Shown here one piece after another: positions 6,575 to 23,993 of a DNA stretch of 23,993 nucleotides. Position numbers and translations under genes: made by a program. Within the stretch, counting starts at the first letter, position 1, and each line of letters opens with the position of its first letter. The DNA lies in IMG/VR virus record IMGVR_UViG_3300009702_000717, positions 1-23,993 of that record; one strand, 5' to 3'. The notes below the pieces were generated by a model. It was not told where the DNA came from, did not search any database, and saw only the letters and a program-made list of their open reading frames with translations. The stretch comes from a virus.

Positions 6575-6607
6575 GGTGGGTAAAAATAGATTATTGTGGA
6601 AAGTCAA
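6575..6607 (-). promoter_or_regulatory. Possible promoter of the leftward early operon
   Basis: An AT-rich patch in otherwise GC-rich DNA, 70-100 bp upstream of the HTH gene. On the minus strand it holds a TTGACT element (6602-6607) followed by an A/T-rich run, but no good -10 hexamer at the usual spacing. It lies downstream of the terminator at 6728-6751, so the early operon needs a promoter here. Sequence support is weak and the position is inferred mainly from layout. Confidence 0.3.
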
Positions 6608-6633
6608 TGTCCAGACTTTTTTCGGTCGGAGCT

Positions 6634-6684
6634 CCAACCGGGCACCAACCACCTATCAACCCTTCACCGACCGGGCGCCAACCA
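6634..6684. repeat. Imperfect 18-bp direct repeat upstream of the early operon
   Basis: CCAACCGGGCACCAACCA (6634-6651) recurs as CCGACCGGGCGCCAACCA (6667-6684), 16 of 18 bases identical and 33 bp apart start to start, about three helical turns. It sits between the terminator at 6728-6751 and the possible promoter near 6575-6607. The spacing on one face of the helix suggests binding sites for an activator or repressor of the leftward operon. It is not in any gene I accept. Confidence 0.45.
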
Positions 6685-6727
6685 AACCGCCGCGCTCCCG
6701 GCGAATCAGGGGCCCGGTTCCCGGACA

Positions 6728-6751
6728 CAAAAAGCCCGCGCATGGCGGGCT
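6728..6751 (-). terminator. Rho-independent terminator after the 225-aa gene
   Basis: AGCCCGC (6733-6739) pairs with GCGGGCT (6745-6751) around a 5-nt loop. Read on the minus strand the stem is followed at once by five Ts (6728-6732). It lies 25 bp after the stop of the 225-aa gene at 6776 and should separate that transcript from the early operon that starts with the HTH gene. Confidence 0.8.
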
Positions 6752-6775
6752 CTCGGAGGTCATGATCGGGGCGGG

Positions 6776-7453: not shown

Positions 7454-7552
7454 GATCTCTCCTTATGTTCGTGCTTTGTTTCTATTGGATTGATTATCCT
7501 CTTTCAACAGTATACTTATCCTGTTTAGTCCACAGATGAGTTGGTGATAACC
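7454..7552. promoter_or_regulatory. Bidirectional switch region with candidate operators
   Basis: An AT-rich 99-bp gap between two divergent regulators. On the plus strand TATACT (7511-7516) is a good -10 for the repressor, with TTGATT (7490-7495) as a -35 at a short 15-bp spacing. An imperfect palindrome CAGTATACTTATCCTG (7508-7523; CAG..CTG and ATA..TAT arms match) covers that -10. TTATCCT occurs twice (7494-7500 and 7516-7522), suggesting at least two repressor sites. On the minus strand TTGAAA near 7505 could be the -35 for the 225-aa gene. This is a typical repressor-controlled divergent promoter pair; the operators are inferred. Confidence 0.5.
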
Positions 7553-8227
7553 ATGATCGTCACCAATATCGCGCAACGCCTCAAAGCCCGCGCGTTTCAG
7601 TTCGACATGACACCGGCAGCGGTGGCGGAAGCCTCAGGGCTCAATCGCTCGTTCATCTATGACATTCTGCGGGGAAAATCCGTGCGTCCCAGCCGGGCCA
7701 AGCTGCAGATGGTCGCCGATGTTCTGAAGGTCGATGTGGACTGGCTGATCGACGGCGATGGCGATGTGGAGGGGGAGGCCCCGAAGATCTACGTGCCGGA
7801 TACAACCTTTGTCGCCATATCAGGTGTTCGCGCCCGCGCCTCGGCCGGCGGCGGGACGATCGTGCAGGCCGAAGACGAACAGGCCAGCAAGCTCTATCAT
7901 TTCCGGCTGTCGTGGATTGAAGACGAGCTTGATGCCAGCCCCAGGGATCTCAGGATGTTGCGGATCACTGGTGACAGCATGATGCCGACACTGAACGATG
8001 GCGATACCATCCTCGTCGACATGGGGCGCAAGGCACCACACCCGTCGGGCCTGTTTGTCCTGCACGACGGCATGGGGCTTGTGGCCAAGCGGATCGAACA
8101 TATTCCAGCCAGCGATCCGCCGCGTATTCGTGTAACGTCCGACAACGCGAATTACTCGCCCTATGAATGCCTGATGGACGAGATCAATATTATCGGGCGG
8201 ATACGGTGGTACGGCCGCAGGGTTTGA
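7553..8227 (+). CDS. CI/LexA-like phage repressor (XRE HTH + S24 peptidase)
   Basis: A 224-aa protein. The ATG at 7553 follows GGTGA at normal spacing; in-frame TTG and GTG codons just upstream are less likely starts. Residues 5-65 form an XRE-type helix-turn-helix (TPAAVAEASGLNRSFIYDIL, then a recognition-helix region ending VDVDWLI). Residues 90-224 are a peptidase S24 domain: a likely self-cleavage site ASAGGG (Ala98-Gly99), nucleophile Ser142 in GDSMMP and general-base Lys179 in VAKR. Such repressors hold the early operon off and self-cleave when RecA filaments form after DNA damage. The position opposite the leftward early genes and the operator-like sites at 7508-7523 support self-regulation and control of the prophage block. 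Confidence 0.88.
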   Translation: MIVTNIAQRLKARAFQFDMTPAAVAEASGLNRSFIYDILRGKSVRPSRAKLQMVADVLKVDVDWLIDGDGDVEGEAPKIYVPDTTFVAISGVRARASAGGGTIVQAEDEQASKLYHFRLSWIEDELDASPRDLRMLRITGDSMMPTLNDGDTILVDMGRKAPHPSGLFVLHDGMGLVAKRIEHIPASDPPRIRVTSDNANYSPYECLMDEINIIGRIRWYGRRV

Positions 8228-8404
8228 TTCTGTAACATTGAGGGGGACGGGCCGGATTGGCCGCGCCTGAGCGTGCGCCCCGCAAGATGCATCGGCGAAA
8301 CAAACCGACACGAACCGCCACCAGCCCCACAACCACCTGTTTTGAATTGTTAATTCTATTCTCTTCGGCAATCTGGACACACACCTTACGCACAGGACGT
8401 GTCA

Positions 8405-8632
8405 ATGCCTTCAAATCCCGATTACTCGTTTGCGGGCTCCAACCCCCTTTCACCCGACCAGATAACCCCGGCCGATCGGCGGGCTGAACTCTGTGCTTTG
8501 CTCGCACGGGGGTTGATCCGGCTTCGGATGCGCAATGCCGCGCAACTATCTGCCCACACGGGAGAAAGTTCGCTACACAAACCGGCCAAGCAGAGCGGTA
8601 CTGCGGAACCAACTCACCGGAGAACCGCATGA
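8405..8632 (+). CDS. Small conserved protein upstream of DUF2924
   Basis: A 75-aa protein. The ATG at 8405 follows AGGA seven bases upstream; a GTG at 8399 in the same frame is less suited. The central part, PADRRAELCALLARGLIRLRMRN, is an amphipathic helix, and the C-terminus GESSLHKPAKQSGTAEPTHRR is polar. I recall small proteins with the A-RRAE-CALLARGL-RLR and ESSL...S patterns preceding DUF2924 genes in alphaproteobacteria. The stop overlaps the DUF2924 start by ATGA, so it is coupled to the recombinase cassette. The function is unknown; the basic helix could contact DNA or the recombinase. Confidence 0.66.
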   Translation: MPSNPDYSFAGSNPLSPDQITPADRRAELCALLARGLIRLRMRNAAQLSAHTGESSLHKPAKQSGTAEPTHRRTA

Positions 8633-9081
8633 CCAAACCCGATCCCATCCCCGCGCGCCTGGCTGCGCTGAAGACAACGCCGACGCCGAACCTGAAGACC
8701 CAGTGGCGGGAATTGTTCGACTCCGAGCCGCCGCCCTTCAACCGCCGCTATCTCGAAAGTCGACTGGCCTACCGCATCCAGGAACTCGCCTATGGCGGGT
8801 TGAAGCCGGAAACGGTCAGACGACTGGAAAAGCTGGGCGAGGAACTGGATGGCGGCGATCGTAAGAAGAGCCGCGTCCGCGCCGATCTGAAGCCCATCAC
8901 CGGCACGCGCCTGATCCGCGAGTGGCAGGGCGTCGAGCAGGTCGTGACCGTTACCGCCGATGGATATGAATGGCAGGGACGGCCTTACAAGTCACTGTCA
9001 TCGGTCGCCCGGGCCATTACCGGCACCCGCTGGAACGGCTGGGTGTTCTTTGGCCTGAAATCACAGCGGGGTGCGACATGA
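8629..9081 (+). CDS. DUF2924 domain protein
   Basis: A 150-aa protein that matches the DUF2924 layout: LKTQWRELFDSEPPPFNRRYLESRLAYRIQEL near the N-terminus, then a basic linker, GTRLIREWQGVEQVVTV, the YEWQGRPYKSLSSVARAITGTRWNGW block and a C-terminal FFGLK. The RPYKSLSSVAR-ITG-RWNG block resembles small DNA- or effector-recognition motifs shared with restriction-associated proteins. DUF2924 genes are found almost always beside large serine recombinases in alphaproteobacteria and are thought to assist them, although the mechanism is not established to my knowledge. Both neighbouring junctions are ATGA overlaps. Confidence 0.88.
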   Translation: MTKPDPIPARLAALKTTPTPNLKTQWRELFDSEPPPFNRRYLESRLAYRIQELAYGGLKPETVRRLEKLGEELDGGDRKKSRVRADLKPITGTRLIREWQGVEQVVTVTADGYEWQGRPYKSLSSVARAITGTRWNGWVFFGLKSQRGAT

Positions 9082-10388
9082 GCAAGGACATCAAGCGCAA
9101 GCTGCGCTGTGCCGTCTATACCCGAAAATCCTCCGAGGAGGGGCTGGAACAGGAATTCAACAGCCTGCACGCTCAGCGAGAAGCCTGCGAGGCCTATATC
9201 GCCAGCCAACGTTCCGAAGGCTGGGTGCTGGTCCGGGATCAATATGACGATGGCGGCAAATCCGGCGGCACTCTCGAACGCCCCAGCCTGCAACGGCTGC
9301 TCGCCGACGTCGAGGATGGGCTGGTCGATGTGGTCGTGGTCTACAAGATCGACCGCCTGTCGCGCTCGCTGATGGATTTTTCCAAACTAGTCGAGGTGTT
9401 CGACCGGAACGGCGTCACGTTCGTTTCTGTCACTCAGTCGTTCAATACCACCACATCCATGGGCCGTCTGACGCTGAACATCCTGCTCTCGTTTGCCCAG
9501 TTCGAGCGCGAGGTGACGGCCGAACGCATCCGTGACAAGTTCGCGGCCAGCCGCAAGAAGGGCATGTGGATGGGCGGCGTGCCCCCGCTGGGCTACGAGG
9601 TGAAGGACCGAAAGCTGATCATCAAGGAGGCCGATGCCGCCCACGTCCGATGGATCTTCGCCCGCTTCATCGAGATTGGTTCCGGCACGGAACTGGCACG
9701 GCAACTGGCGGCGCGAGGCGTGCGGACCAGACATGGCAACCGGATCGACAAGAAATTCCTCTATCGTATGCTGAACAACCGCGCCTATATCGGCGAGGCT
9801 GTCCACAAGGGGAACAGTTATCCCGGCGAGCACAAGGCGATCATCGAGCGCGCGACCTGGGACAAGGTTCACGCGATCCTGACCGAAAGCCCCCGCAAGC
9901 GTGCCGCGCGCACACGGGCCGATACGCCCGCGCTGTTGAAAGGTCTGCTCTACGGGCCCGACGGGGCGGCCTTCTCGCCGACGCACACGCGCAAGGGTGG
10001 CAAGCTTTACCGCTATTATGTCAGTCAGACCGTGCTGAAACACGGCGCCGGGACATGCCCCGTCGGTCGCGTGCCCGCAGGCGAGATCGAGGTCGCCGTC
10101 ATTAACCAGCTCCGCGCCGTGTTCCGCCAGCCGGAGATCGTGGCGGGAACTTGGAAAGCAGCAAAGGGGGAGGATGGTGAGGTCGCCGAATCCAACGCGC
10201 GAGAGGCACTTCAGCAGCTTGACCCGTTCTGGGACGAGCTCTTTCCAGCCGAGCAGGCGCGCATCGTGGCATTGTTGGTCGAGCGGATCGATATCGGCTC
10301 CGATGGCCTGAATGTTCGCCTGCGCATGGACGGGTTGGTTGATTTGGCGCGGGAACTGATGGCGGGTACCAAGGACGCCGTAGCATGA
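9078..10388 (+). CDS. Large serine recombinase (resolvase/invertase superfamily)
   Basis: A 436-aa protein. The ATG at 9078 overlaps the DUF2924 stop. The N-terminal resolvase domain (1-150) has AVYTRKSSEEG with Ser18 as the likely nucleophile, YDDGGKSGG and KIDRLSRSLMDF carrying the active-site arginines, then ILLSFAQFEREVTAERIRDK. A PF07508-type recombinase domain follows (GVPPLGYEV ... RMLNNRAYIGEAVHKG). The segment where most relatives carry a zinc ribbon (LLKGLLYGPDGAAFSP ... RYYVSQ) has lost the CxxC pairs, as I remember for the DUF2924-linked subfamily. It should join or excise DNA between short att sites. It could be the integrase of the prophage block to the left or belong to an independent cassette; no att core could be identified. 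Confidence 0.9.
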   Translation: MSKDIKRKLRCAVYTRKSSEEGLEQEFNSLHAQREACEAYIASQRSEGWVLVRDQYDDGGKSGGTLERPSLQRLLADVEDGLVDVVVVYKIDRLSRSLMDFSKLVEVFDRNGVTFVSVTQSFNTTTSMGRLTLNILLSFAQFEREVTAERIRDKFAASRKKGMWMGGVPPLGYEVKDRKLIIKEADAAHVRWIFARFIEIGSGTELARQLAARGVRTRHGNRIDKKFLYRMLNNRAYIGEAVHKGNSYPGEHKAIIERATWDKVHAILTESPRKRAARTRADTPALLKGLLYGPDGAAFSPTHTRKGGKLYRYYVSQTVLKHGAGTCPVGRVPAGEIEVAVINQLRAVFRQPEIVAGTWKAAKGEDGEVAESNAREALQQLDPFWDELFPAEQARIVALLVERIDIGSDGLNVRLRMDGLVDLARELMAGTKDAVA

Positions 10389-10774
10389 AACGCGGCACCA
10401 CACCCGACACGATCACCCTCCACGTCCCGTTCCGCATCGTGAAGCGCGGAGGCCGCAAGAAAGTGCAACTGCCGCCCGGCGCTCCGGCCCAGCGCAAGTC
10501 CGACAACACGCTCGTCAAGGCGTTGGCCCGCGCCTTGCGCTGGAAGCGAATGCTGGAATCGGGCGAGTTCACGACCATCGCCGAACTGGCCCAGCGCGAG
10601 CGCATCGCGCCGTCCTACATGACCCGCATCCAGCGGCTGACGCTGCTGGCGCCGGACATCATCGAGGCGATCCTGGATGGGAAACAGGGGCCGGAGGTCA
10701 CGTTGGGGCGGCTGCTGCAGGGGTTTCCGGGGGAGTGGGAGGGGCAGCGACAGGATCTCCAATGCTCCATTTGA
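10385..10774 (+). CDS. ParB/KorB-like HTH protein of the recombinase cassette
   Basis: A 129-aa protein. The ATG at 10385 overlaps the recombinase stop (ATGA). The N-terminal third is basic (LHVPFRIVKRGGRKKVQLP). Residues 45-105 form a helix-turn-helix, LVKALARALRWKRMLESGEF, then TTIAELAQRERIAPSYMTRI and a hydrophobic LTLLAPDIIEAIL, close to the ParB/KorB central DNA-binding domain. It ends EWEGQRQDL. Proteins of this type end the DUF2924-recombinase cassette in many alphaproteobacteria. It may act as a recombination directionality factor or an autorepressor of the cassette; this is inferred. Confidence 0.72.
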   Translation: MKRGTTPDTITLHVPFRIVKRGGRKKVQLPPGAPAQRKSDNTLVKALARALRWKRMLESGEFTTIAELAQRERIAPSYMTRIQRLTLLAPDIIEAILDGKQGPEVTLGRLLQGFPGEWEGQRQDLQCSI

Positions 10775-11043
10775 ACGGCTCCAAAGCGTGCCGCTATATC
10801 GCTGAACGGGCACAGAGCCGCGCCTCCGGAGCGGTCACCGTGCGTCGCGCAGCCTTTTTCGAGAGCACTCGTCTGAATGCGTCTGCTGCCTGCCCAGCGT
10901 TCACACCAGAGCCTGCAACGTCGCCGAGGAATGGTTTACTCAGTCAAGCGATGTGGTAGTCTTGAAGGGACAGCACGACAGCGCAGCGCAAGATCCACAG
11001 ATTGATGCCGCTGCATTCTACGATCAATAAATCGAGCTAATTC
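10775..11043. other. Gap between recombinase cassette and defence operon
   Basis: A 269-bp stretch with no gene I can support. Open frames exist on both strands, but none has a ribosome site or recognised motif. The last 60 bp are AT-rich and hold a weak promoter-like pair for the downstream operon (TTGATG 11002-11007 and CAATAA 11025-11030, 17 bp apart). This is where the right attachment site of the recombinase or the entry point of the defence cargo would be expected, but no repeat with the right end of the cargo is convincing. Confidence 0.35.
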
Positions 11044-12276
11044 ATGAACGAAATACACACATCAGTAGTTAAAATTTCATCACGCGAAGCAGTATTAAAG
11101 CGCAAATTACGTCAGCACTTGCACGCCATCGGCTTTTCAAAATCTACAAATGGTGAACTGCAAATAGAGGGTGAAGGTAAAGAAATTGTGCGCGCCCTTC
11201 ATCGCGCTCAGCGAGAAGACCGCATTAAGGCGAGCAAGGACTTTCTGGCAACAAGAGCACCCAGTCTCTTTCATCACTTTGCAAACGGCAGCGACATTGA
11301 GCCGTCGAAGATTTCTCCTGTCATCGAGCGTATCTCATCAGGAACGCAACATGGCGATTTATTCCGGCTTGCCTCCCTAACATGGTCTGTCCCGGTGTCG
11401 AACGGCTTTGGCCGGCGGCTTCGCTATCTTGTGTGGGACGAAAATAACGGCAAGCTGATGGGCTTGATCGCTATCGGTGATCCCGTCTTTAATCTCGCCG
11501 TACGCGACCGTTTGATCGGCTGGACGTCCAAGGATCGCAGCGCAAGACTCGTCAACATCATGGACGCCTATGTGCTCGGTGCCATACCCCCTTACAATCA
11601 ATTACTCGGTGGTAAGCTGGTCGCGTGTCTTTTGCGAAGCCGCGAACTATATGACGACTTCGCGTCTGCCTATGGCGATACGACAGGCATCATATCCGGC
11701 GAAGGCAAAAAAGCCCGCCTGCTGGCCGTCACGACATCATCCTCAATGGGGCGTTCGTCCGTCTATAACCGCCTGAAGCTGGGTGGTGTCCAGTACATGG
11801 AGTCGATTGGCTTCACCGGGGGGTGGGGACATTTTCATATCCCGGACCATCTCTTTTCTGAATTGCGTGATTATTTAAGAGACATCGATCACAGCTATGC
11901 TGATCAGCACATGTTTGGCCAAGGTCCGAACTGGCGTCTGCGGACAACCAGGGCAGCGCTTGCCACATTGGGATTTAAAGAAGATATGCTCCGTCATGGT
12001 ATCAAGCGGGAGGTATTCATCAGCCGGCTCGCGAAAAATGCAGATGCGATCCTCAGGTCCGGAAATGGCAGACCCGACACCGGCTCTCTTTTGTCGACCA
12101 AAGAGATCGCAGGGCTTGCAACGGAAAGGTGGATGCAGCCGCGGGCAAAAAGGCGGCCTGAGTATCGCGACTGGACCGTTGAAGACTTGATGGCGCTATT
12201 CGGAAGCCAAAGCCGCCAGATGCAATCCCGCCTTGCTCAACAAGGTTCGCACGGGAATTCCTCCGCGGCGATGTGA
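11044..12276 (+). CDS. druA: DruA-like DUF4338 protein of a Druantia-type defence operon
   Basis: A 410-aa protein. The family signature is in the middle: LMGLIAIGDPVFNLAVRD (residues 140-154), then RLIGWT, RLVNIMDAYVLGAIPPYNQ and LLGGKLVACLL, followed by TTSSSMGRSSVYNRLKLGGV. This series (G-I-G-P-x-x-N...RD..IGW, N-x-D-x-x-VL-A-PPYN, GGKL) is the DUF4338 core of DruA proteins of type I Druantia antiphage systems. The biochemical action is not settled, to my knowledge; some DUF4338 proteins occur near transposons. The start codon has only a weak ribosome site. The N-terminal coding region is AT-richer than the rest of the window, which fits transfer. The 952-aa gene begins 6 bp after the stop. 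Confidence 0.82.
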   Translation: MNEIHTSVVKISSREAVLKRKLRQHLHAIGFSKSTNGELQIEGEGKEIVRALHRAQREDRIKASKDFLATRAPSLFHHFANGSDIEPSKISPVIERISSGTQHGDLFRLASLTWSVPVSNGFGRRLRYLVWDENNGKLMGLIAIGDPVFNLAVRDRLIGWTSKDRSARLVNIMDAYVLGAIPPYNQLLGGKLVACLLRSRELYDDFASAYGDTTGIISGEGKKARLLAVTTSSSMGRSSVYNRLKLGGVQYMESIGFTGGWGHFHIPDHLFSELRDYLRDIDHSYADQHMFGQGPNWRLRTTRAALATLGFKEDMLRHGIKREVFISRLAKNADAILRSGNGRPDTGSLLSTKEIAGLATERWMQPRAKRRPEYRDWTVEDLMALFGSQSRQMQSRLAQQGSHGNSSAAM

Positions 12277-12282
12277 TCTGAT

Positions 12283-15141
12283 ATGAGCGTTCCTCTCGAC
12301 ACATGGCAGAAACGAATGGAGGACCATTTTGCGGACCTCAAGGCGCGTCGTGACCGGTCCGGCCTTCCGATCTTCGCACTGGAACACGGTCTCGCGGAAG
12401 AAAGCTTGGCAGATATCGCCGCGCAGTTGCGTCAACGCCTCATCCATGGAGAAAGGCTCGCGCCGCACTGGCTACTTTGGACCATCTACGCCGCCGAGAG
12501 AGGCTATACATACGAAGGGGGTGAATACTGGCAATCCTTCGAGGAAGCTACGCCAAGCTGGGATTCCCGTGATCGCTACAGAGTCTCCAATTGGTTCAGG
12601 AAATTCCAGAAATTGTATAACGGCGTCGTCCCATCCGGACCTTGGGCCGAGCACTTCAGTATCATTGCCTGGCCAATCACACATGCCGTTCTGCCGCGGT
12701 TTCTCCAATGGCAGTTTGCTCGCATACTCTATGATTTGCGCTACCGACTGGCCCGACTGAACGACGTAGACCCCGCAATAATTGGCCGCCTCGTTGAGTC
12801 CAACGTCTATTATGCCTCAACCCGGCTAGAGCAATTCCTCCAGCAGGAAGAACTGGTTGGTCGCCTCGTCCTTGCACTTCTGCATCAAGATCAAATTGAA
12901 GGCGAAGAACCACTCCTCCCTGCAACGCTGGAACGCATCGTCGGTGACCTAGAACAAGTTCGCGACGCGAGAGCTTGGATCAAGGAGGCCAGCCGTGTCG
13001 TCTCGGACCGCTTCAAAGGTCTCGGCCGCGGGACAGGCTCTCGTCAAGCCCCTTCGGCAGGCGGAACTGCAGAGCGTTCCTCGTTTGAAGCGCGTCCCGA
13101 TATCCGCCCTGATCTGCGGCTGTACTACAAGGGTCAAGGGAACTGGGATCTTCAGATCGATATCCCGAGTTTCAAGGATGTTGGGGCGCTCAATCCAGAA
13201 GCACGCCAGTTTCTCAAACAAACTCGTTGCGCCGTCAACGGGAGCACAGGGAAGAAGCCGCCCGGATGGCTTCTTTCGGGGCGTCGTCAGGCCGTTCTTC
13301 GCAACTGGCCTGATCCAGATCAGCCGATGGTCGCCTTTGAAGGGAAGAACGGCACTGTCGATCATCTTCTCGGCAGCGAATGCCGTACGAGCGCAGGACC
13401 GGTCTGGCTCTTTCGTATTGGCAAGGACGGCCTAGCCCGGGAGATAGCCGGCCGCACCGTACGCCCCGGGCAGGACTACGTTGCCGCATCCAAAGAGCCT
13501 CTGGAAGATCTGCTCAATCTTCAACAGCCTTGCACAATCAACTGCGCCGACATCCATGCTATTCAGCTGAGTATTCCGAAGGCCATTCCGGAAGCGCTGG
13601 CTCAGCTACTCAAAGCATGGAACCTTGAAATTGCGCGGACCATCCGAGTTTGGCCAGCCGGGCTTCCCGGTCGAAGCTGGGACGGAGAGGGCCGCGGTGA
13701 GTGGCTGACGACAGAGAAGCCGTGCCTAGGTATCGCTCCTGATCATAAGGTTGAAACGTTCCAGATCAGTCTCGACGGCAGTGAGGCGCAAACAGTCAGT
13801 GCCGGAGAGCCCGGTGAGCCAACATTCATCCAGCTTCCGGAACTGACGGCTGGCAGACACCTCCTAAGGATCAGCGCCCACACCCAGAATGGGGAGGGAG
13901 TGGGTCTCGCTTCCCACGAGGGGTATCTCGAACTCCGAGTCCGTGAACCCGAATCCTGGGCTTCCGGTACTTCTCTTCACGCCGGTCTAATCGTGACGCG
14001 CAGCCCTCACGACGCAACGCTGGATACGTTTTGGCAGAACGAATTTGATCTATCGGTTGCCGGTCCGGAGGGCCGACAAGTCACGCCTTCTGTTGCGCTG
14101 CGCAATGCTGCTGAAGACAAAATTTTCACGCGGCAGGTGTGCGACGCTCTTAATCTGCCCGTTACGCCGGATGTCTGGAAGAAACGGTTCAAAGACTTCC
14201 TCCAGCGCGAAAAATGTGAATGGCGCTATTTGGAAGCGACATCCGGCATTCTCACACTCGATGGCGGCGAACTTGGACGCTATGATATTCGTTTTGAACA
14301 CGACGTAAAACCCGTTCGTTGGTTCCTGCGCCATCAGAGCGACGGGGTTTTCATCCGCCTTGTTGATGAAACGAACCAAGAGGGGACAGCGCCTGTCTGC
14401 CAGTTCTTTGGAATGGAAAGTCCGCGGGATATGGAATCCATCGATCCCGAAAAAGCATTACGAGGCTTCAAAGTAGAGCCGCCCGGCGGCTTGTTCACTG
14501 CAACAATCGGAACATCACGCGACTACATCGCGGTCAGCACCGGCTTATCCGATTCGCACCTTGCCGGCCTCGGCGTCCGCCCCAACTATGGCCATATCTC
14601 GGGCGACCCTAAAGCCATTGTCAACTTGATACGTATCCTCAGACACTGGAACAGCGCCCGCGTCGCAGGCGATCTCGGCACCTTTCACCGGTGGCAAGTG
14701 ATCAACACATTAATGCATGGGATCGTCGGTATCATCGCCGGCTGGGACTGGGCGCGAGCCGAAGCCCAGTTCATTGAAGTGAGCAATTCTGGCGAGGCCC
14801 TTACGCGCCTTCAATCCCTGGTCAATCACAAGAGCGGCTTTGCGAGCGTCATTGTCAGAGATGCCGGTACCATGACGGGAGGCCGGAAACAACTGATCGC
14901 TTGGTTTACCGATCTTGCAACGCGCTATCGAATTGCGTCAGACGCCGACCTCTGTCAGTTCGTGTTGGAGTTCGCCAGCCGGCCTCACGCCCTGCCAACG
15001 CTTTATCTGGAGCGGCTAGAAAGCCATATCAGGCGCGCCAAGGCGAGCCGGACCCTCGTTCGGGCGGCAAGGCTCGCGATCCTCTGCAAGAGTTGTGCGG
15101 ACGGCAGGGCTGCAAGACTTCTACCGGAGAGGGATTCATGA
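12283..15141 (+). CDS. Large uncharacterised Druantia-operon protein
   Basis: A 952-aa protein. Residues 1-230 are mostly helical, with HWLLWTIYAAERGYTYEGGEYW and SIIAWPITHAVLPRFLQW as distinctive aromatic stretches. The middle (about 270-700) is strand-rich, with GNWDLQIDIPSF and PVWLFRIGKDG followed by GRTVRPGQDYV, and looks like several Ig- or beta-sandwich-like units. The C-terminal part is helical again. I see no Walker, nuclease, methylase or membrane motif. It lies between DruA and DruE like the B/C/D proteins of type I Druantia, so a scaffold or sensor role is likely, but which canonical subunit it represents, or whether it is a fusion, cannot be decided here. Its stop overlaps the next start (ATGA). 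Confidence 0.72.
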   Translation: MSVPLDTWQKRMEDHFADLKARRDRSGLPIFALEHGLAEESLADIAAQLRQRLIHGERLAPHWLLWTIYAAERGYTYEGGEYWQSFEEATPSWDSRDRYRVSNWFRKFQKLYNGVVPSGPWAEHFSIIAWPITHAVLPRFLQWQFARILYDLRYRLARLNDVDPAIIGRLVESNVYYASTRLEQFLQQEELVGRLVLALLHQDQIEGEEPLLPATLERIVGDLEQVRDARAWIKEASRVVSDRFKGLGRGTGSRQAPSAGGTAERSSFEARPDIRPDLRLYYKGQGNWDLQIDIPSFKDVGALNPEARQFLKQTRCAVNGSTGKKPPGWLLSGRRQAVLRNWPDPDQPMVAFEGKNGTVDHLLGSECRTSAGPVWLFRIGKDGLAREIAGRTVRPGQDYVAASKEPLEDLLNLQQPCTINCADIHAIQLSIPKAIPEALAQLLKAWNLEIARTIRVWPAGLPGRSWDGEGRGEWLTTEKPCLGIAPDHKVETFQISLDGSEAQTVSAGEPGEPTFIQLPELTAGRHLLRISAHTQNGEGVGLASHEGYLELRVREPESWASGTSLHAGLIVTRSPHDATLDTFWQNEFDLSVAGPEGRQVTPSVALRNAAEDKIFTRQVCDALNLPVTPDVWKKRFKDFLQREKCEWRYLEATSGILTLDGGELGRYDIRFEHDVKPVRWFLRHQSDGVFIRLVDETNQEGTAPVCQFFGMESPRDMESIDPEKALRGFKVEPPGGLFTATIGTSRDYIAVSTGLSDSHLAGLGVRPNYGHISGDPKAIVNLIRILRHWNSARVAGDLGTFHRWQVINTLMHGIVGIIAGWDWARAEAQFIEVSNSGEALTRLQSLVNHKSGFASVIVRDAGTMTGGRKQLIAWFTDLATRYRIASDADLCQFVLEFASRPHALPTLYLERLESHIRRAKASRTLVRAARLAILCKSCADGRAARLLPERDS

Positions 15142-16235
15142 TCTCAGTCGTCGCGCCCGAAGATATCGTGCAGCACTGCCGGTCGCTGCTGAACTTGCAG
15201 GGCGAGGATCAAGGTATCGATGACATTTTCCTGTCTGCCATGCTCAGGCGGGCGGCAGGAATTCTTTGCCCCTGTTCGCGCACGGTACTGCGCGCCGCGC
15301 TTGTCGAGAGCCTGAGCCATTTGGATCAACAGCCAGCCACGTTGCCCGCACGCCTCGATAGCCTGATTGACGATCTTCTTGTGGTGGGCGACTTGCTGGA
15401 ACTATCCGACGTGACGACCGGAGATTCAGAAGTAAAGGGAACATGGGTCTTTGCAGCACCACCTTCGTTCGTGGAGCGCAAGAGCGGCAGCATCTTTCTG
15501 ACAGGAATCGTTCCCGACCAAGATGGGTGGCTGCCTGAAAACATCCGTAACCGAATCGTTCACTCGAACAACACGCGATCCATCAAACCGGAGGACGGGG
15601 AAGACCTTGCCGCACAGCTTGTTAGCGAAGGCCTTAGCAAATTACCCGAGACAACGTGGCTCAAGGCACCCAAGACCGTTGCGTCAAATGAAACCCTCTC
15701 CAAAGCAAGACAACACCTTGCTGGCGTGCAGCCATGCGCACCAGTTCAAGGGCTTGAGATCATCGACCCCGACGCCAAGCCGACCTACTACAAAGGGCGC
15801 TGGGCTTCCCCGAAGGATCACTCCGGCCTGTTTGTTGCGCGGCGTCCGCAGGAATTCGGCGCAGCTTTGTGGTGTTTGGCTGAAATCCATTCCGGGTCGC
15901 TCAAGCGTATCATTGACTTGCCAATCCGGGGCTATCGCTGGCGCGGGTGCGATGCGGCATGGCATCTGCAAATGGCAATAGACTGTGAGCGGGACGCGCC
16001 GCAGAGATACAGCCTCGATCCTGGTGGCGATGGCACATGTTGCTTGAGTTTCTATTCTCCGATTCCGCTATGGACGGAGCGCCGGCTCATGATTCTCGGC
16101 AAAAAATGCCAAGGGACAAAATGCCTTTTTGCTTATGAGATACCAGCCGATGAGGCCGCACAAGAACAGGAATTCTTGCAAGAGAACCTCTGGCTCGCCC
16201 CAATTGAGACCAAATCCGTGATGAGGAGTGCGTGA
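15138..16235 (+). CDS. Uncharacterised Druantia-operon protein, DruD/DruC position
   Basis: A 365-aa protein. The ATG at 15138 follows GGAGAGG and overlaps the 952-aa gene's stop. The N-terminal half is helical with an LCPCSRTVLRAALVESL segment. The C-terminal half contains a strand-rich block, QEFGAALWCLAEIHSG, LPIRGYRWRGCDAAW, then SFYSPIPLWTERRLMILG and a closing E-FLQENLWLAP. No enzyme motif is visible. The C-terminal pattern (FYSPIPLW-ERRL, LW-P) looks conserved and specific. The DruE-like start lies one base beyond the stop (TGATG), so it is made together with the helicase, perhaps as a partner. Its homology to a canonical Dru subunit is not proven. Confidence 0.7.
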   Translation: MISVVAPEDIVQHCRSLLNLQGEDQGIDDIFLSAMLRRAAGILCPCSRTVLRAALVESLSHLDQQPATLPARLDSLIDDLLVVGDLLELSDVTTGDSEVKGTWVFAAPPSFVERKSGSIFLTGIVPDQDGWLPENIRNRIVHSNNTRSIKPEDGEDLAAQLVSEGLSKLPETTWLKAPKTVASNETLSKARQHLAGVQPCAPVQGLEIIDPDAKPTYYKGRWASPKDHSGLFVARRPQEFGAALWCLAEIHSGSLKRIIDLPIRGYRWRGCDAAWHLQMAIDCERDAPQRYSLDPGGDGTCCLSFYSPIPLWTERRLMILGKKCQGTKCLFAYEIPADEAAQEQEFLQENLWLAPIETKSVMRSA

Positions 16236-19200
16236 TGCAAACAATAAAACAGACCATCGAACAGTTGCACGCCTCGCTCAAGGAATACATCGAGGCGACC
16301 TACCATATCAGCGCGCCCTCGCTTATCGCTCAGCGGCAGGCGCTTCTGGACAAGGAGGGAGTTATCCACCAAGTACCGTTTCTTGAATCGACCCCCAGAT
16401 ATCAATCGGGAGAAACCTTCGCGTCGATGTCGGGCCTGCCACGCGCGGCATTGGAACTGCTTGGCCGCTTGAGCACGCCTGAGGGAGTTCTGCCGCGGCT
16501 TGTTTATGACCCTCCCTACATGCATCAGGGCGAGTCACTGAAGAGCTGCCTGATCGACGGCAAGAACCTCGTCATCATGACCGGAACGGGTTCCGGTAAG
16601 ACCGAGGCCTTCCTTCTGCCGATCCTCGGCAAGTTCGCAAGGGAAGCCCAAGCACATCCTAAGGCTTTCGCAGAGCAGCCGGCCATGCGGGCTCTCATCA
16701 TGTATCCGATGAACGCTCTCGTGAACGACCAACTCGGCCGCTTGCGGGCGATGCTGGGCGATCCGAGGCTGGTTCAGACCTTCAAGGGCTGGTGCGGACG
16801 GCCGCCGCGATTTGCCCGGTATACAAGCCGGACACCCTATGCGGGTGTTCGCACAGCGAAGAAGGATGGCCAGCGGCTCAAATCCTTCGGCGACTTCTAT
16901 GTCGATGTGCTTCAGAACGCCGCAAATTCTGACCCCGAAAAGAGCATGGAAGCAGGCGCACTTCTCTCTGCCCTCAGAGAAAGAGGAAAATGGCCAGCAA
17001 AACCCGACCTTGAGGCGTGGTTTGGCCCGAAGGGAAGTCGATGGGAAAGCAAGGGCGCGTTTGTCAGGGCTGTCACCCTGCCGGACGACTCCGAACTTCT
17101 GACGCGCCACGAAGTGCAACTCGCCCCGCCTGACCTGCTGGTCACAAACTACTCGATGCTGGAATATATGCTCATGCGGCCGATTGAACGGCCGATCTTC
17201 GATAATACAAGGGAGTGGCTTCAAAAGAACCTTGACGAAACCTTCCTCGTCGTGCTCGATGAAGCGCATCTTTATCGTGGCGCAGCGGGAGCGGAAGTCG
17301 GGCTCTTGCTGCGAAGGTTGCGGGACCGGCTCGGAATACCCGAAGAGCGGCTTCAGGTTATTTGCGCGACAGCGAGCTTTGATGACTCGACCTACGCCCT
17401 CGAATTTGGTGCTCAACTCTCTGGCGTTCCTGCAAGCACCTTTGTCGCCGTTCAAGGCGCGCTCGATCTCAAATCAGTTCAGGACGCCGGAACAGATGCC
17501 GATTCCGCCGCTCTATCGGCCATAGACCTTCGGGTCTTCTATGAGGCCGAGACTAACGAGGCGCGCCTCGAATCCGTTGCACCGCTTCTAGCATATCGCG
17601 GAATCGATGCTGATGGACCGACAGAAAAGGCCCTGTACCAGGCGCTCCATGACTTTGGTCCTATGGGGCGGCTCATTAACGCAACCATGGAGGAGGCCAT
17701 CCCGATAGCCGAACTCGGCGCGCTCGTCTTCCCGGAAGGCGTTTCGGCCGACGTCGCGGATCAGGCCATCACCGTCCTTATGGCGCTTGGCAGCATTGCA
17801 AGACCATCGCCGGGGCTTCCGGGGCTCTTGCCATGCCGGGTGCACAACTTCTTTCGTGGATTGCCTGGTCTCTGGGTCTGTATGGACCCTGATTGCAGCG
17901 AACTCGCAGCAGAAGAGCGCGGCGGTATCTGTGGAAAAATGTATTCGCAGCCTATGGATGCGTGCCGCTGCGGCGCGCGCGTTCTCGAATTATTCACGTG
18001 CCGAAATTGCGGTACCGCGTATGGGCGGGCTTATACAGACGATATCGACGAGCCACACGATCTCTGGGCAGAGCCGGGCGAGCAACTTCACATGGCAAGC
18101 GGAGAGAGCGCACCGCTTGAGCCCATCGACCTGCTTCTTGAGGAACCCGCTCACGACGATGTCGCAGAGCCAGCAGACTACGACCTTGAGACAGGACAGC
18201 TAAACCCGAACACGATAGGGCCGCGCACTAGAACAGTGTATATCCGGCAGGGGCGGCTGGCCGACACGCCCGATGATGACGATGAAGGCGGAAGCGCTGC
18301 GGAAGCGCGGGGAAAGTTTGTTCCGTGCGCCGTGTGTAGAAAGAAAGCTCGGTTCGGGCGAAGCTACGTTCAGGACCACCAGACCAAGGGCGATCAGCCG
18401 TTCCAGGCGTTGGTTACCCATCAAATCCAGATTCAGCCGCCCGGTCCACAAGAGCCCACCCGTTTCGCGCCGCTGCGCGGGCGCAAGGTGCTCGCGTTCA
18501 GCGACTCCCGGCAAGTTGCGGCCCGACTGGCGCCCAACATCCAAATGTACTCAGAGCGGGACTCGCTCAGGCCGCTGATCATCAGCGGGTTCAAATGGCT
18601 ACAGGAACAGGACGCCTTACGGCCGCATCTCGGGCTCGACGACCTTTATCTCGGCGTGTTGCTGGCGTCACAAAGGCTCAATGTTCGCCTTCGTCCCGAG
18701 TTGCACGCTCACGAGAGCTTTGAGGCCGAAGACATCATCGAGGAGGCGCTCAAGGGTGGACATCTTGACGATCCGACAGCGCTCTTAACCCTGCTTCTCG
18801 ATCTGCGGGCGCACCGCCCGCCCGAAGCGCTTCTCGGAAGCATGCTGACAACGCTCTCAGACCGTTTCTACGGGATGGAAGCACTCGCGCTTGCTACGCT
18901 CTGCGAGAAGGACCGTCATCGCCAAAGAATCATTGATCTGCCGCTCATTCCCGGCCTTGTGGAAACGGACCAGGCCAAACTTGCTCTGGCTCGGTTTTGG
19001 CTTCACTGCTGGAACGGTTTCTGGCTCGCGCAAATGCCGGGAATCTGGGTCGACCGGCCTGCTTCGGACGGCTATCGCGTCAGATCGCGCAAGGCGCAGG
19101 CCAAGATTGAGGCCATCAATGCCATGATCGGCGATAAGACCGCCCGGAAGCTGTTCTGGGATCAATGGCATCCCGAACTCGTCTCGACCTTCACGAAATC

Positions 19201-21784
19201 CAAGGAAGGCGGGAACAGGTATCTCAACGGGAGCGAACTCTCGCTCCAATTTGAGGGCGACTGGGTACATTGCAAAAGCTGCAAGTCAGTCCATAGACCA
19301 ATACCCGGACATGATCGCTGCCTTGACTGCGGCAGCCTTTCCGTCAGTGCGCTCGATCCAGATTGCGATCCCGTTTTCCTCGCCCGGAAAGGCTTTTACC
19401 GCAAACCTGTCACGGAGGCTCTCCAAGACCCGCCGCGACAGCCGATGGCGCTTATCGCGGCCGAGCACACGGCGCAGCTCAACGCGCCTCAGAACGAGGA
19501 TGTCTTCTCCAAAGCCGAGGAGCATGAACTGTTGTTCCAGGATATCGCCCTTGTCGGCAGCAGCCTCAGGTCTCGCGCCACAGCGATAGATATCCTCTCT
19601 AGCACCACGACGATGGAGGTCGGTATAGATCTCGGTGCTCTGACAGGCGTTTCGCTAAGGAATATGCCCCCCGGACGCGCAAACTATCAGCAGCGCGCTG
19701 GACGGGCCGGTCGCCGCGGCAACGCTGTTGCAACTGTGGTGGCTTTCGGAAGCGCGGACAGCCATGACGAGCACTATTTCTCACGACCGGATGAAATGAT
19801 CCGCGGCAAGGTCATCGACCCTAAGCTCACGCTGGACAACCCGGAGATCGCGCGGCGGCATATCCGCGCATATCTGCTTCAGGGTTATCATCAGGACCGG
19901 CTGCCGACAATTGATCCTAGCCAGCCGCACGACCTTTTCTCGGTTCTCGGGAGCGTCTCAGCTTTCCGCAAGCCGGAGTCTGTCCTGAACCGCGATGATT
20001 TCGCGTCGTGGCTCAAAGAGAACGAAGAGGCGCTTCGCACGCGGATTGCCTCCTGGCTGCCGATTGAACTCTCGGATGCAGACCGGGCCAAACTTCTCGA
20101 AGAGTTCGTGACGGACTGTCTGAAAGCCGTCGATGATGCGATCTCCTCGGATGCCACAAACGATGACGAGGATGATGGTGGGGATGATGGCGGGGATGAA
20201 GAAGCTCCAGAGGAAGGAGAAGAGCGCCCGCAGCAGGCTTCCCAGCCCAATAAGCTCCTCGACCGTCTCCTTTATTGCGGGAAGCTGCCCCGTTACGCGT
20301 TCCCGACAGATGTCGCGACCTTCCATGTTTTTGACCGCGACCGCTCCACACCATTCCGGCACATCATGAAGTTTGCGCCCTCGCAAGGTCTGCCGATTGC
20401 ACTCTCGCAATACGCCCCCGGAAAGCAGGTCTGGATAGCAGGGAAGTGCTACACCTCTGGCGCAATCTACTCGGTCATGAGGGATGATCTCTTCGAGGCT
20501 TGGCAAGCGCGCAAACTTTACATGCAATGCTCTGAATGCGGGTACGCCAAGACATACGAACAGGGAGAGGTCGTTCGCAGCGATACGTCAGACTGCGAAG
20601 CTTGCGGTGAACCCGGCAGTTTCGGACCAGCACGTTATTGGCTACGGCCACCCGGTTTTGCGCATCCCGTCTTTGAGGAGGAGGTCACGTCTCCGGACGA
20701 GATTCCGGAGACGAGCTATGCGACGCGTGCCAAACTCACGATGGGTACGCCGGGCGATACCGCCGGTTGGGTGCACGCCAATGATCGTGTCCGCGGCCTG
20801 AGTTCGCGCGAGCACCTACTTGTATCAAATACTGGCCCGCAGGATGAAGGGTACAGCTATTGCGTCAAATGCGGCCGAATCGAAGCAAGTACGAAACCGA
20901 ACCCAAGCCTTGCCGGTCCGCACCGCAAACCCTTCCCAGAAAAGGACGACAATCTGATGTGCGACGGCATCGGTCCGACACACCATCTGGTCCTCGGTAC
21001 AGACTTCATTACCGATATCGGTCTCTTCTCGATGCGTGTCGAAAAACCGATCGAACTCCGGCCCACCCATTACTCCACCCATGTCGCACTTAGGACCGTC
21101 AGCGAGGCGCTTGCAAAGGCTGCGTGTCAGTTGCTTGAAATCGAGCCTAGTGAGCTAATGGCCGAATTTCGTCCTGCACTTACGACCAGAGGAAAGTCCG
21201 GAAAAGAAGTCGAGATCTTCCTCTATGACACGCTACCGGGCGGGGCCGGATTTGCCAGTCAGATCGCGGGGCGCGGGCTTGAACTGTTCCGGAGGGCGTT
21301 ATCCATCCTCAAGAACTGCCCTGAGAACTGCGATGGCTCTTGCTATCGATGCCTCCGGAGTTTCAAAAACAAGCTGGAACACAGGCTTCTTGATAGACAT
21401 GTTGGGGTCGAGCTTCTTGAGTATCTCCTATCCGGTCAACACCCTGGCTTCAACGAGCAGCGGTTGAAGGACTCCACGGCGCTCCTTTTGAACGATCTCA
21501 GGCGCCGCTGTGATGGCACTATATCCTTCGAAGCTGGAGCGACCGTCACCTACGGCGCGGGCACTAGCATCGAGGTTCCTATCCTCGCCCAATCGGCTAG
21601 GAAGTCGTTTGTGATAGCCTTGTCGGGTCCTCTGACGAGCGGCCACCCATCTGACGCCAAGATTGCTGACCTGAGGGAAAACAGCACCACATACCACGTC
21701 ATCGTTGAAAACGAACTCGAAGTACGCGGCAATCTACCCTCGGTCAGTCGCAAAGTGCTTCACCAGATAAGGACATCAGTATAA
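16235..21784 (+). CDS. druE: DruE-like DEAH helicase with C-terminal DUF1998
   Basis: An 1849-aa protein. The ATG at 16235 follows GAGGAG six bases upstream. SF2 helicase motifs: TGTGSGKTE (116-124), DEAH (342-345), ATAS (378-381), STTTMEVGID (1123-1132) and QQRAGRAGRRG (1152-1162). Between the two RecA lobes lie several CxxC pairs (549-592, 698-701, 1013-1032), probable zinc ribbons. A very acidic linker follows at about 1310-1330. More CxxC pairs (1432-1457, 1543-1546) precede the DUF1998 module, whose C-terminal cysteine cluster CPENCDGSCYRC (Cys1695, 1699, 1703, 1706) is intact. Helicase-DUF1998 proteins of this length are the DruE hallmark of Druantia. It would translocate on nucleic acid and drive the antiviral response; the precise substrate is unknown. 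The split-motif order, large insertions and intact catalytic residues indicate a functional gene. Confidence 0.88.
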   Translation: MQTIKQTIEQLHASLKEYIEATYHISAPSLIAQRQALLDKEGVIHQVPFLESTPRYQSGETFASMSGLPRAALELLGRLSTPEGVLPRLVYDPPYMHQGESLKSCLIDGKNLVIMTGTGSGKTEAFLLPILGKFAREAQAHPKAFAEQPAMRALIMYPMNALVNDQLGRLRAMLGDPRLVQTFKGWCGRPPRFARYTSRTPYAGVRTAKKDGQRLKSFGDFYVDVLQNAANSDPEKSMEAGALLSALRERGKWPAKPDLEAWFGPKGSRWESKGAFVRAVTLPDDSELLTRHEVQLAPPDLLVTNYSMLEYMLMRPIERPIFDNTREWLQKNLDETFLVVLDEAHLYRGAAGAEVGLLLRRLRDRLGIPEERLQVICATASFDDSTYALEFGAQLSGVPASTFVAVQGALDLKSVQDAGTDADSAALSAIDLRVFYEAETNEARLESVAPLLAYRGIDADGPTEKALYQALHDFGPMGRLINATMEEAIPIAELGALVFPEGVSADVADQAITVLMALGSIARPSPGLPGLLPCRVHNFFRGLPGLWVCMDPDCSELAAEERGGICGKMYSQPMDACRCGARVLELFTCRNCGTAYGRAYTDDIDEPHDLWAEPGEQLHMASGESAPLEPIDLLLEEPAHDDVAEPADYDLETGQLNPNTIGPRTRTVYIRQGRLADTPDDDDEGGSAAEARGKFVPCAVCRKKARFGRSYVQDHQTKGDQPFQALVTHQIQIQPPGPQEPTRFAPLRGRKVLAFSDSRQVAARLAPNIQMYSERDSLRPLIISGFKWLQEQDALRPHLGLDDLYLGVLLASQRLNVRLRPELHAHESFEAEDIIEEALKGGHLDDPTALLTLLLDLRAHRPPEALLGSMLTTLSDRFYGMEALALATLCEKDRHRQRIIDLPLIPGLVETDQAKLALARFWLHCWNGFWLAQMPGIWVDRPASDGYRVRSRKAQAKIEAINAMIGDKTARKLFWDQWHPELVSTFTKSKEGGNRYLNGSELSLQFEGDWVHCKSCKSVHRPIPGHDRCLDCGSLSVSALDPDCDPVFLARKGFYRKPVTEALQDPPRQPMALIAAEHTAQLNAPQNEDVFSKAEEHELLFQDIALVGSSLRSRATAIDILSSTTTMEVGIDLGALTGVSLRNMPPGRANYQQRAGRAGRRGNAVATVVAFGSADSHDEHYFSRPDEMIRGKVIDPKLTLDNPEIARRHIRAYLLQGYHQDRLPTIDPSQPHDLFSVLGSVSAFRKPESVLNRDDFASWLKENEEALRTRIASWLPIELSDADRAKLLEEFVTDCLKAVDDAISSDATNDDEDDGGDDGGDEEAPEEGEERPQQASQPNKLLDRLLYCGKLPRYAFPTDVATFHVFDRDRSTPFRHIMKFAPSQGLPIALSQYAPGKQVWIAGKCYTSGAIYSVMRDDLFEAWQARKLYMQCSECGYAKTYEQGEVVRSDTSDCEACGEPGSFGPARYWLRPPGFAHPVFEEEVTSPDEIPETSYATRAKLTMGTPGDTAGWVHANDRVRGLSSREHLLVSNTGPQDEGYSYCVKCGRIEASTKPNPSLAGPHRKPFPEKDDNLMCDGIGPTHHLVLGTDFITDIGLFSMRVEKPIELRPTHYSTHVALRTVSEALAKAACQLLEIEPSELMAEFRPALTTRGKSGKEVEIFLYDTLPGGAGFASQIAGRGLELFRRALSILKNCPENCDGSCYRCLRSFKNKLEHRLLDRHVGVELLEYLLSGQHPGFNEQRLKDSTALLLNDLRRRCDGTISFEAGATVTYGAGTSIEVPILAQSARKSFVIALSGPLTSGHPSDAKIADLRENSTTYHVIVENELEVRGNLPSVSRKVLHQIRTSV

Positions 21785-21860
21785 AGATGGTCGGTGCTTC
21801 GCTTTCTCGCTGTCATTCTCAAGGAAGTTTTTCCAAACGTCATCGGTTGGACGGGCGCTT

Positions 21861-23837
21861 ATGATTGAGATTATCGGCGCGAACGAAGGGCAGGAATACG
21901 AGGCGGCGGTTCATCTCCGCAAGCTGATCCTTGCGGTATGGCCTGATCTCAGCCAGCATCCTGATAACCATGTCAAGCTATTTGTAAGCCTGAAGCTCTA
22001 TGGCCAGAGATATGAAGACATCGATGTATTTGTAGTCGGCCATTTCTCCCAGCCGCGGGAATTCGATGTCGAAATGAAATTCTACCCGCGAGACGGCGAG
22101 CCTGTTCTGCCACGAAGGGCCTATGTCCGCAATTTCGCGTTGGCAGTTGAGGTCAAATCCCATGACGCCAGCGGCGTCCAGTTTGACGACAAGCTCGTCT
22201 CGGTCAAATATCCGCGCGGCTGGGAATGTGTGACCGAGAAGGCCTTCAAGCAGGTCTTCGAACTCAAGAGTTACCTTAAACGTGCGGGCCTCCCGAGCCC
22301 TTATGTGAAGGATCTGGTTTTCATGACCGGCTTGCGAGAGGCCGACCTTCCCGCGCGCCCTCATAACTGTTTTGGGATTGATGCCAGCTTCGAAAAGATA
22401 CTGAATATTGTTGGTCAGGTATCGCAGCCGCTCGTGAAGGATCGCTTCGCCACGATCAGTTTTGGCCCAGACGAAAACTTCCACGCCATCTTATCGCCAG
22501 AAGCAACGGTTCTAAAGACGATGGAGCCTACTTCGCTTGACCGAAGGCGAATGGACCGGATCGTGAAATCTGCCCTTCCTGATGAATGGCTTGACGACCT
22601 CGCCAAGAAACAAATCGTCATCCGCGGGCGCGGCGGCGTTGGCAAGACCGTCATCCTGCTTCAGATGGCTTACCGCGCGTTCGACAATGCCGGAATGCGG
22701 TCGCTGGTGCTCACATACAATAAGGCGCTTGTCGCCGACATGCGGCGCACAATGGCGCTTCTAGGAGTCCCTCGTCACCTTGCGAAGGGTGGTATCGGTA
22801 TCGAAACCGTCCACGCCTTTATCGGGCGGCTCATGAGCGAACTCGGGATCATTGGAAGCGAAGACGACTTCCTGGGCAACTACGAGAAGCATAAACAGGG
22901 GTTGCTCGATTATCTCCGCAGCGGCGCCGTGTCCAAGAGCGATCTCAAGAGTCTTATCGAAGAGAATGCCGACGATTTTGCATGGGATGTCATCTTTGTA
23001 GATGAGGGCCAGGACTGGCCTTCAAACGAGATCGAGATATTGCGCACTGTCTTCCGACCCGAGCAGATCGTTGTTGCAGATGGTGTCGATCAATATGTGC
23101 GCGACTCTGTCGCCGATTGGGACGCCGGTCTTTCGCGCGATCTTCTCCGGCCGCGCCGACTGAGACGATGCCTGCGGATGAAGGCCAACCTGGCGCACTT
23201 CGTTGCCGATTGCGCCAGCGCATTGGGGCTTGAGAACTGGGACTTGGAGCCAAATCCCGACGCCAATGGCGGCCGCGTCATCATCGTCGAGGGGAAGATG
23301 GCACGCGACACCGCGATCTTCGAACGCCTAAAGGAAGAGGCAGCCGAACTCGGCAACTATCCTGTCGATCTACTTGCGTGTGTGCCGCCGTCTCTCGTTG
23401 TTCACGAGGAGGATCAGACATATGCAATCCCGGGACGTGCGATCCAGCAAGCCGGGGGACTCGTGTGGGACGCGTCTTCAATGGACGTCAGAGAGAACTA
23501 CCCGACCGAACGAGATGCTCTGCGGATCGTTCAGTATGATTCCTGCCGCGGCCTCGAAGGTTGGACCGTTTTCAACTATGCCTTTGACGATTTCTACGAC
23601 TACAAGCTGAATCAGTGGCTGTTGTCACCGCCGGATCTTGGTGGGCTGTTTGACACCAAGGAAGACCTCGCCGCCGCGTTCGCCGCGCAATGGGTTATGA
23701 TTCCGATCACGCGCGCCATGGATACGCTGGTCATAAATGTTTCCACGCGCCCTTCCCGTCTGAAGGATGTTCTGAAGCATGTTCATGAGCGTCGCAACGA
23801 CTTCGTAGAATGGATCACAGTCCCCAGTCAGACCTGA
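21861..23837 (+). CDS. NERD-like nuclease fused to SF1 (UvrD-type) helicase
   Basis: A 658-aa protein. The N-terminal domain (1-150) begins IIGANEGQEYEAAVHL and has IDVF (Asp55), then AVEVKS (Glu97, Lys99), a D...E-x-K nuclease core as in NERD domains. The C-terminal two thirds is a one-subunit SF1A helicase: RGRGGVGKT (Walker A, to Thr263), VDEGQD (381-385), a GDxxQ-like ADGVDQ (406-411), YDSCRGLEG (motif V, near 560-567) and PITRAMDTL (motif VI, Thr617-Arg618-Ala619). NERD-helicase fusions of this kind are known from defence islands. It follows DruE by 76 bp on the same strand, so it is likely co-transcribed and may cut nucleic acid opened by DruE, or may be a separate defence gene. The catalytic residues look complete. 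Confidence 0.82.
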   Translation: MIEIIGANEGQEYEAAVHLRKLILAVWPDLSQHPDNHVKLFVSLKLYGQRYEDIDVFVVGHFSQPREFDVEMKFYPRDGEPVLPRRAYVRNFALAVEVKSHDASGVQFDDKLVSVKYPRGWECVTEKAFKQVFELKSYLKRAGLPSPYVKDLVFMTGLREADLPARPHNCFGIDASFEKILNIVGQVSQPLVKDRFATISFGPDENFHAILSPEATVLKTMEPTSLDRRRMDRIVKSALPDEWLDDLAKKQIVIRGRGGVGKTVILLQMAYRAFDNAGMRSLVLTYNKALVADMRRTMALLGVPRHLAKGGIGIETVHAFIGRLMSELGIIGSEDDFLGNYEKHKQGLLDYLRSGAVSKSDLKSLIEENADDFAWDVIFVDEGQDWPSNEIEILRTVFRPEQIVVADGVDQYVRDSVADWDAGLSRDLLRPRRLRRCLRMKANLAHFVADCASALGLENWDLEPNPDANGGRVIIVEGKMARDTAIFERLKEEAAELGNYPVDLLACVPPSLVVHEEDQTYAIPGRAIQQAGGLVWDASSMDVRENYPTERDALRIVQYDSCRGLEGWTVFNYAFDDFYDYKLNQWLLSPPDLGGLFDTKEDLAAAFAAQWVMIPITRAMDTLVINVSTRPSRLKDVLKHVHERRNDFVEWITVPSQT

Positions 23838-23870
23838 TGTAGTGGCTGCTTGGTTGATCCAGCCTTGTCT
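23838..23870. other. Short gap before the IS66 end
   Basis: A 33-bp segment between the stop of the nuclease-helicase gene and the first base of the IS66 terminal repeat. It contains no recognised gene or terminator with a T-run. CCTTGTCT (23863-23870), directly next to the repeat, would be the candidate 8-bp target duplication of the insertion. Confidence 0.5.
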
Positions 23871-23993
23871 GTAAGCAGCCGGTAAGGACCGCGCTTCAGG
23901 CCGCGACGGCTGCCTGATTGCTTTCCGCCTTCCAGTTCCACGGCAACAGTTCGTCGATCCGGTTGATTTTGTGATCCTGGATGCGGGCGAAGA
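23871..23993 (-). mobile_element. IS66-family insertion sequence, right end (continues past window)
   Basis: GTAAGCAGCCGGTAAGGACC begins at 23871, the GTAAGC start of IS66-family terminal inverted repeats. Immediately inside it lies the 3' end of a transposase gene on the minus strand. Only this end of the element is in the window. Its left boundary abuts the defence operon. Confidence 0.75.
23896..23993 (-). CDS. tnpC: IS66-family transposase (TnpC), C-terminal fragment at window edge
   Basis: The reverse strand reads FARIQDHKINRIDELLPWNW, then KAESNQAAVAA and a TGA at 23896-23898. The motif HKINRIDELLPW is the well-known C-terminus of IS66-family TnpC transposases. The gene is cut by the right edge of the window, so its 5' part, any companion tnpA/tnpB genes and its integrity cannot be judged. 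It reads toward the defence operon, and the IS66 terminal repeat follows 25 bp after the stop. Confidence 0.88.
   Translation of the reverse strand, partial: FARIQDHKINRIDELLPWNWKAESNQAAVAA

Follow-up and report, generated by a model that had tools for sequence, protein, structure and literature searches.

The stretch of DNA analyzed here, referred to as the window, forms one record of 23,993 bases in a viral-contig collection and carries five uninterrupted open reading frames, head to tail on the plus strand between positions 11044 and 23837. The question it raises is whether these genes form an ordinary Druantia type I defence system beside an unrelated gene or a system of another composition. 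The initial annotation had raised the possibility of an undescribed subtype, in which DruA and a DruE-like helicase bracket two anonymous proteins and a NERD-SF1 helicase closes the operon. Our sequence comparisons point to a distinct, widespread and modular Druantia type I-like variant with predicted anti-phage activity, in which a family that we call P952 takes the place of DruB and DruC.

Organization of the operon

The five genes of the operon are the following:

11044-12276, plus strand: druA, encoding a 410-aa DUF4338/DruA protein (PF14236, 2.8e-82; PADLOC DruA1, 2e-209, full length).
12283-15141, plus strand: P952 gene, encoding 952 aa of a family without a model, with a helical N-terminal part, a beta-sandwich middle and a helical C-terminal part (predicted).
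15138-16235, plus strand: druD-like gene, encoding 365 aa (PADLOC DruD1, 2e-139, full length).
16232-21784, plus strand: druE, encoding a 1850-aa YprA-family SF2 helicase with an MrfA-type Zn-binding (DUF1998) region and a degenerate nuclease-like C-terminus.
21861-23837, plus strand: fifth gene, encoding a 658-aa NERD-like PD-(D/E)XK nuclease fused to an SF1 helicase, assigned by conserved motifs.

The reading frames are intact, and their lengths and junctions are those first described: DruA and P952 lie 6 bp apart, P952 and DruD overlap at ATGA, and DruD and DruE overlap at GTGATG (TGATG), with DruE measuring 1850 aa from its GTG and 1849 aa from the next ATG. The gap between DruE and the helicase is wider than the other junctions, at 76 bp. 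In the PADLOC search, the proteins at the two ends of the core matched type I models over their full length (DruE1 with 2061 bits, together with Pfam DEAD, Helicase_C and MZB), the 365-aa protein matched DruD1, and P952 had no match. Of the two middle proteins taken to be anonymous, only P952 is so; likewise, the proposal of an undescribed subtype stands for P952 and for the gene composition and not for the core helicase, given that PADLOC flags DruA1, DruD1 and DruE1.

Distribution of P952 loci

When a P952 alignment was run against 84,980 species genomes, the family was found at 32 genome loci from about ten phyla, with representatives in Alpha- and Gammaproteobacteria, Acidobacteriota, Chloroflexota, Bacillota, Myxococcota, Thermodesulfobacteriota, Omnitrophota, Planctomycetota, Bacteroidota and Actinomycetota. 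A separate alignment-based scan of viral contigs added one further P952 locus. Single-protein pattern scans of the viral contigs, with DruE and P952 as queries, returned no relatives, whereas alignment-based scans did find some; among phage records, no P952 relatives were found. P952 is followed by DruD and DruE in every locus whose contig is long enough and unmasked, and a DruA-family gene lies upstream or nearby in nearly all of them, so that DruA-P952-DruD-DruE is the prevailing order. Beyond this core and the slot of the fifth gene, the loci share few flanking genes, and because the identical order recurs in dozens of loci with differing flanks, the arrangement lies far beyond chance. The full five-gene order also recurs in distant genomes. 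Among 385 sampled alphaproteobacterial genomes, one locus known beforehand included, P952 was present in four and the terminal helicase in two, both of them P952-bearing. Literature searches that did not extend to the first Druantia publication and its supplementary data turned up neither an account of a P952-type Druantia nor any reference to DruK.

Some loci showed additional features. On conjugative plasmids of Sinorhizobium medicae the operon is present as a decayed copy (L003, 6171-16798), in which P952 is matched in two frames, an IS3 element splits DruE and the helicase is shortened at its C-terminus. A Mycobacterium locus (L041, 5012-20748) has two P952-like genes and a DruE represented by two overlapping reading frames, followed by a DruK-like nuclease. 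In Rhizobium sp. BK251 (L025), a gene upstream of P952, at 6835-9606, encodes 923 aa that include a caspase-like (Peptidase_C14) domain, and the DruA-like gene is found at the opposite end of the locus, on the opposite strand.

The P952 family

P952 gave no match in PADLOC (up to an E-value of 10), Pfam, NCBIfam or PDB. Profile comparison with hhalign matched it to none of DruB, DruC and DruD, with probabilities of 0.3% for DruB and 0.1% for DruC. Two further candidates, DruH (represented by the Marinobacter protein, PADLOC DruH3) and YjiT, were rejected with a profile probability of 0.5%. An AlphaFold2 model built from 28 sequences comprises a helical region at residues 1-245, a beta-rich region at 277-760 and a second helical region at 776-940, with a mean pLDDT of 77.5 and a pTM of 0.42, and the placement of its domains is uncertain. 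Foldseek matches of this model were Ig, FNIII and macroglobulin-like arrays together with phage tail proteins, all with low TM-scores, which we read as supporting the predicted beta-sandwich domains and as implying no specific relative. By sequence, residues 3-834 have homologues of some 1000 aa in other YprA-family loci, where their genes adjoin those for SNF2/BrxHII-like helicases.

Judging from the model, P952 would be a helical and beta-sandwich scaffold and possibly a sensor of infection. A DNA-processing or DruE-loading subunit, such as a clamp or a further nuclease, with sensing placed in DruA, DruD or DruE, appears to us a somewhat unlikely role for this protein, although it would fit several observations: the occurrence of P952 relatives beside SNF2/BrxHII-like helicases suits a general helicase partner, the best-conserved stretch (residues 126-150) falls in the helical N-terminal part and outside the beta-sandwich part, and DruH unites sensing and nuclease activity in one protein (PMC13192584). 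It is disfavoured by the fact that beta-sandwich arrays usually mediate protein recognition and that neither a nuclease nor an ATPase motif was recognized in P952.

The fifth slot

The nuclease motifs of the fifth protein, ED-x-D at residues 52-55 and E-x-K at 97-99, are invariant or nearly so in the alignment, and SF1 helicase motifs are also present. Pfam returned only weak hits with no significant NERD match, and the NERD label is therefore motif-based; the initial assignment of this gene holds for its SF1 and nuclease motifs and lacks the Pfam NERD match. Occupancy of the slot was counted over the 27 loci with the DruE end on the contig. A NERD-like helicase comes next after DruE in 15 of them (truncated in L023; shortened and beside the IS-broken DruE in L003), a PD-(D/E)XK nuclease with Cas4-like motifs, some 415 aa long, occupies the slot in six (L026, L028, L031, L038, L041 and L042), and neither nuclease is found there in the remaining six (L002, L020, L021, L022, L040 and L043). 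The slot nuclease of L041 matches PADLOC DruK at 3e-15. The window helicase showed no confident profile likeness to the Leisingera NERD helicase family beyond the helicase core, and neither of these two helicases resembled the Cas4/DruK-like nuclease by profile.

Across distant genomes the terminal helicase-nuclease accompanies the operon as a conserved gene, common and not obligatory. It might still be an independent defence gene that frequently travels with a working system of DruA, P952, DruD and DruE alone, as could be argued from the Nitrosococcus locus (L002) and the five others without a nuclease gene after DruE, as well as from the 76 bp that precede the helicase in the window. We regard this as rather improbable. 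At other loci the corresponding junction is a gap of 5-7 bp or a 4-bp overlap, and the divergence of the helicase tracks that of DruE (11 loci, r = 0.989, a value from related sequences and hence no independent test). In addition, a second, unrelated nuclease occupies the slot in the sister clade, and relatives of the helicase follow DruE in other contexts: in an Alisedimentitalea plasmid (L050, 4553-14968), DruF and DruE are followed, with a 4-bp overlap, by a full-length relative with 37% identity, and in Shinella (L051) another relative follows a DruE-like protein. The DruF-DruE locus of L050 adjoins a cytosine methyltransferase and a restriction enzyme.

Comparison with canonical type I Druantia

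Canonical type I was represented by two operons only, those of E. coli strain 165 (L045) and P. putida pKF715A (L007). The window shares with them a compact same-strand operon, a DruE that matches PADLOC DruE1, a gene called DruD before druE, and a DruA that is 66% identical to both references. It differs in that P952 loci have P952 in place of DruB and DruC, usually with a fifth nuclease gene; no PADLOC hit to DruB or DruC was obtained in the window, and the P. putida DruB and DruC queries found nothing in P952 loci. The window DruE is 31-38% identical to canonical type I DruE. DruD could not be aligned to the canonical DruD proteins by BLAST, and profile comparison with the E. coli and P. 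putida proteins gave a probability of 12% with an E-value of 0.002. The assignment of the 365-aa protein as DruD thus rests on the PADLOC model, which evidently covers the P952-type variant, and E. coli DruD would be at best a remote relative. The AlphaFold2 model of the window DruD (pLDDT 87) matched no solved structure below an E-value of 0.001, and neither DruD nor the terminal helicase has a sequence relative in the PDB.

The phylogenies of the two outer core proteins disagree. The DruE proteins of P952 loci, 27 in the tree, cluster together with a support of 100, separate from canonical DruE, whereas canonical DruA falls inside the P952 group as sister to Nitrosococcus, with supports of 96-100. 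This conflict indicates that DruA was exchanged between the two operon kinds, in either direction, as far as sequence trees with two canonical operons can tell. In L031, L033, L042 and L044, DruA is divergent (about 683 aa where the reading frame was read) and the upstream gene belongs to one family, with a HATPase in the two members scanned.

Ordinary type I Druantia, with P952 derived from DruB-DruC by fusion or divergence and an unrelated terminal gene as its neighbour, retains the DruA-x-DruD-DruE order and the close DruA in its favour, but it is very improbable and is refuted at the profile level by the DruB and DruC comparisons given above, besides which the PADLOC DruB and DruC models gave no match even at an E-value of 10, DruB and DruC together (about 1175 aa) exceed the 952 aa of P952, DruE stands in a clade of its own and the terminal gene is conserved in distant genomes.

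Relationship to other YprA-family systems

Druantia types II and IV share with the P952 variant a YprA-family DruE, the NERD-like helicase after DruE in the DruF-DruE locus of L050, and the resemblance of DruK to the alternative slot nuclease. They differ in having DruF as the partner instead of P952 and in lacking DruA from their set; none of the five window proteins matched DruF, DruM, DruG or DruL. In type III, DruE unwinds 3'-tailed DNA and DruH, which has Ig-like domains, is the likely sensor (PMC13192584). Type III also places DruE beside a large partner with helical ends and beta-sandwich domains, as predicted in P952, but DruH is not a P952 homologue by profile and the parallel is a functional analogy; moreover, type III DruE has its own active PLD nuclease (PMC13192584).

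A P952 relative is also present in SNF2-containing YprA loci of Rhodobacterales and Rhizobiales (L004/L008, L005, L006 and L011), and two of these (L008 and L011) share a DruA-domain protein, a DruE-like helicase and a NERD helicase with the window. In these loci, in contrast, the partner of the P952 relative is an SNF2 helicase, in many cases on the other strand, and the NERD helicase belongs to another subfamily. On the Leisingera (L008) and Paracoccus (L011) plasmids, genes for a HATPase, a DruA-domain protein, a DruE-like protein, a NERD helicase and a protein in the DruD position are convergent with those for the SNF2 helicase and the P952 relative. ARMADA and DISARM likewise center on a YprA-family helicase, but the five operon proteins and the other annotated reading frames of the window include no PglX-like methyltransferase, BrxHII-like helicase, DrmB or DrmC.

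Mobile-element context

Upstream of the operon, positions 609-10774 are prophage-like, with a Dda-like helicase, a Cas4-type exonuclease, a Sak4-like annealing protein, a CI-like repressor and a large serine recombinase, and have a G+C content of 0.61 against 0.53-0.58 in the operon. The genes nearest to the operon are the following:

8970-10388, plus strand: large serine recombinase (Pfam Resolvase/Recombinase; phrog_95 and phrog_14161 in the span 8970-10774).
10385-10774, plus strand: small recombinase-associated gene adjoining it.

We assign these recombinase genes to the mobile-element context, outside the defence system. In Rubellimicrobium (L012) a recombinase also adjoins the operon, and the DNA is collinear with the window at 87% from 9558 to 23869; the operon therefore probably travels with the recombinase. 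In L013 and L014, similarity to the window is confined to the operon. A search for direct repeats resembling attachment sites and for a tRNA found none, which leaves the right end of the mobile element undefined. Just past the helicase gene, on the minus strand, a frame at 23870-23993 reads FARIQDHKINRIDELLPWNWKAESNQAAVAA*, which we take, from its C-terminal motif, to resemble the C-terminus of an IS66 transposase; the start of this IS66-like segment coincides with the end of the L012 collinearity.

Proposed mechanism and implications

We lean slightly toward the complete reading of the operon as a type I-like Druantia in which P952 replaces DruB and DruC and acts with DruE and a nuclease supplied in trans. 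P952 would sense a phage component or a DNA state and thereby license DruE, which, modelled on type III DruE, would load on exposed 3' single-stranded phage DNA and unwind it; DruD would probably serve as an adaptor. The nuclease-like tail of DruE is presumed dead: none of the aligned members has a conserved acidic residue where the catalytic strand is expected, which matches the published description of the type I DruE C-terminus as an inactivated Vsr nuclease (PMC12458937). Because the tail lacks these acidic residues, cutting is proposed in trans, probably by the product of the fifth gene, a nuclease-SF1 helicase fusion here and a Cas4/DruK-like nuclease elsewhere, which would cut or resect the opened DNA.

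Whether the operon deserves the rank of a separate Druantia type, spread over about ten phyla and defined by a core with a dead DruE tail, an exchangeable nuclease slot and a P952 sensor shared with SNF2-containing YprA systems, is in our judgment evenly balanced. The mechanism of type I Druantia is apparently not established and an obvious active nuclease is lacking, hence the interest of a PD-(D/E)XK gene that recurs right after a degenerate-tailed DruE, a testable source of DNA cutting. P952 itself is a conserved family that the tested defence catalogue does not contain, and through it Druantia is connected with SNF2-containing YprA systems. Finally, an exchanged DruA set against a separate DruE clade shows that Druantia is built of swappable modules, which bears on how its types are defined and detected.
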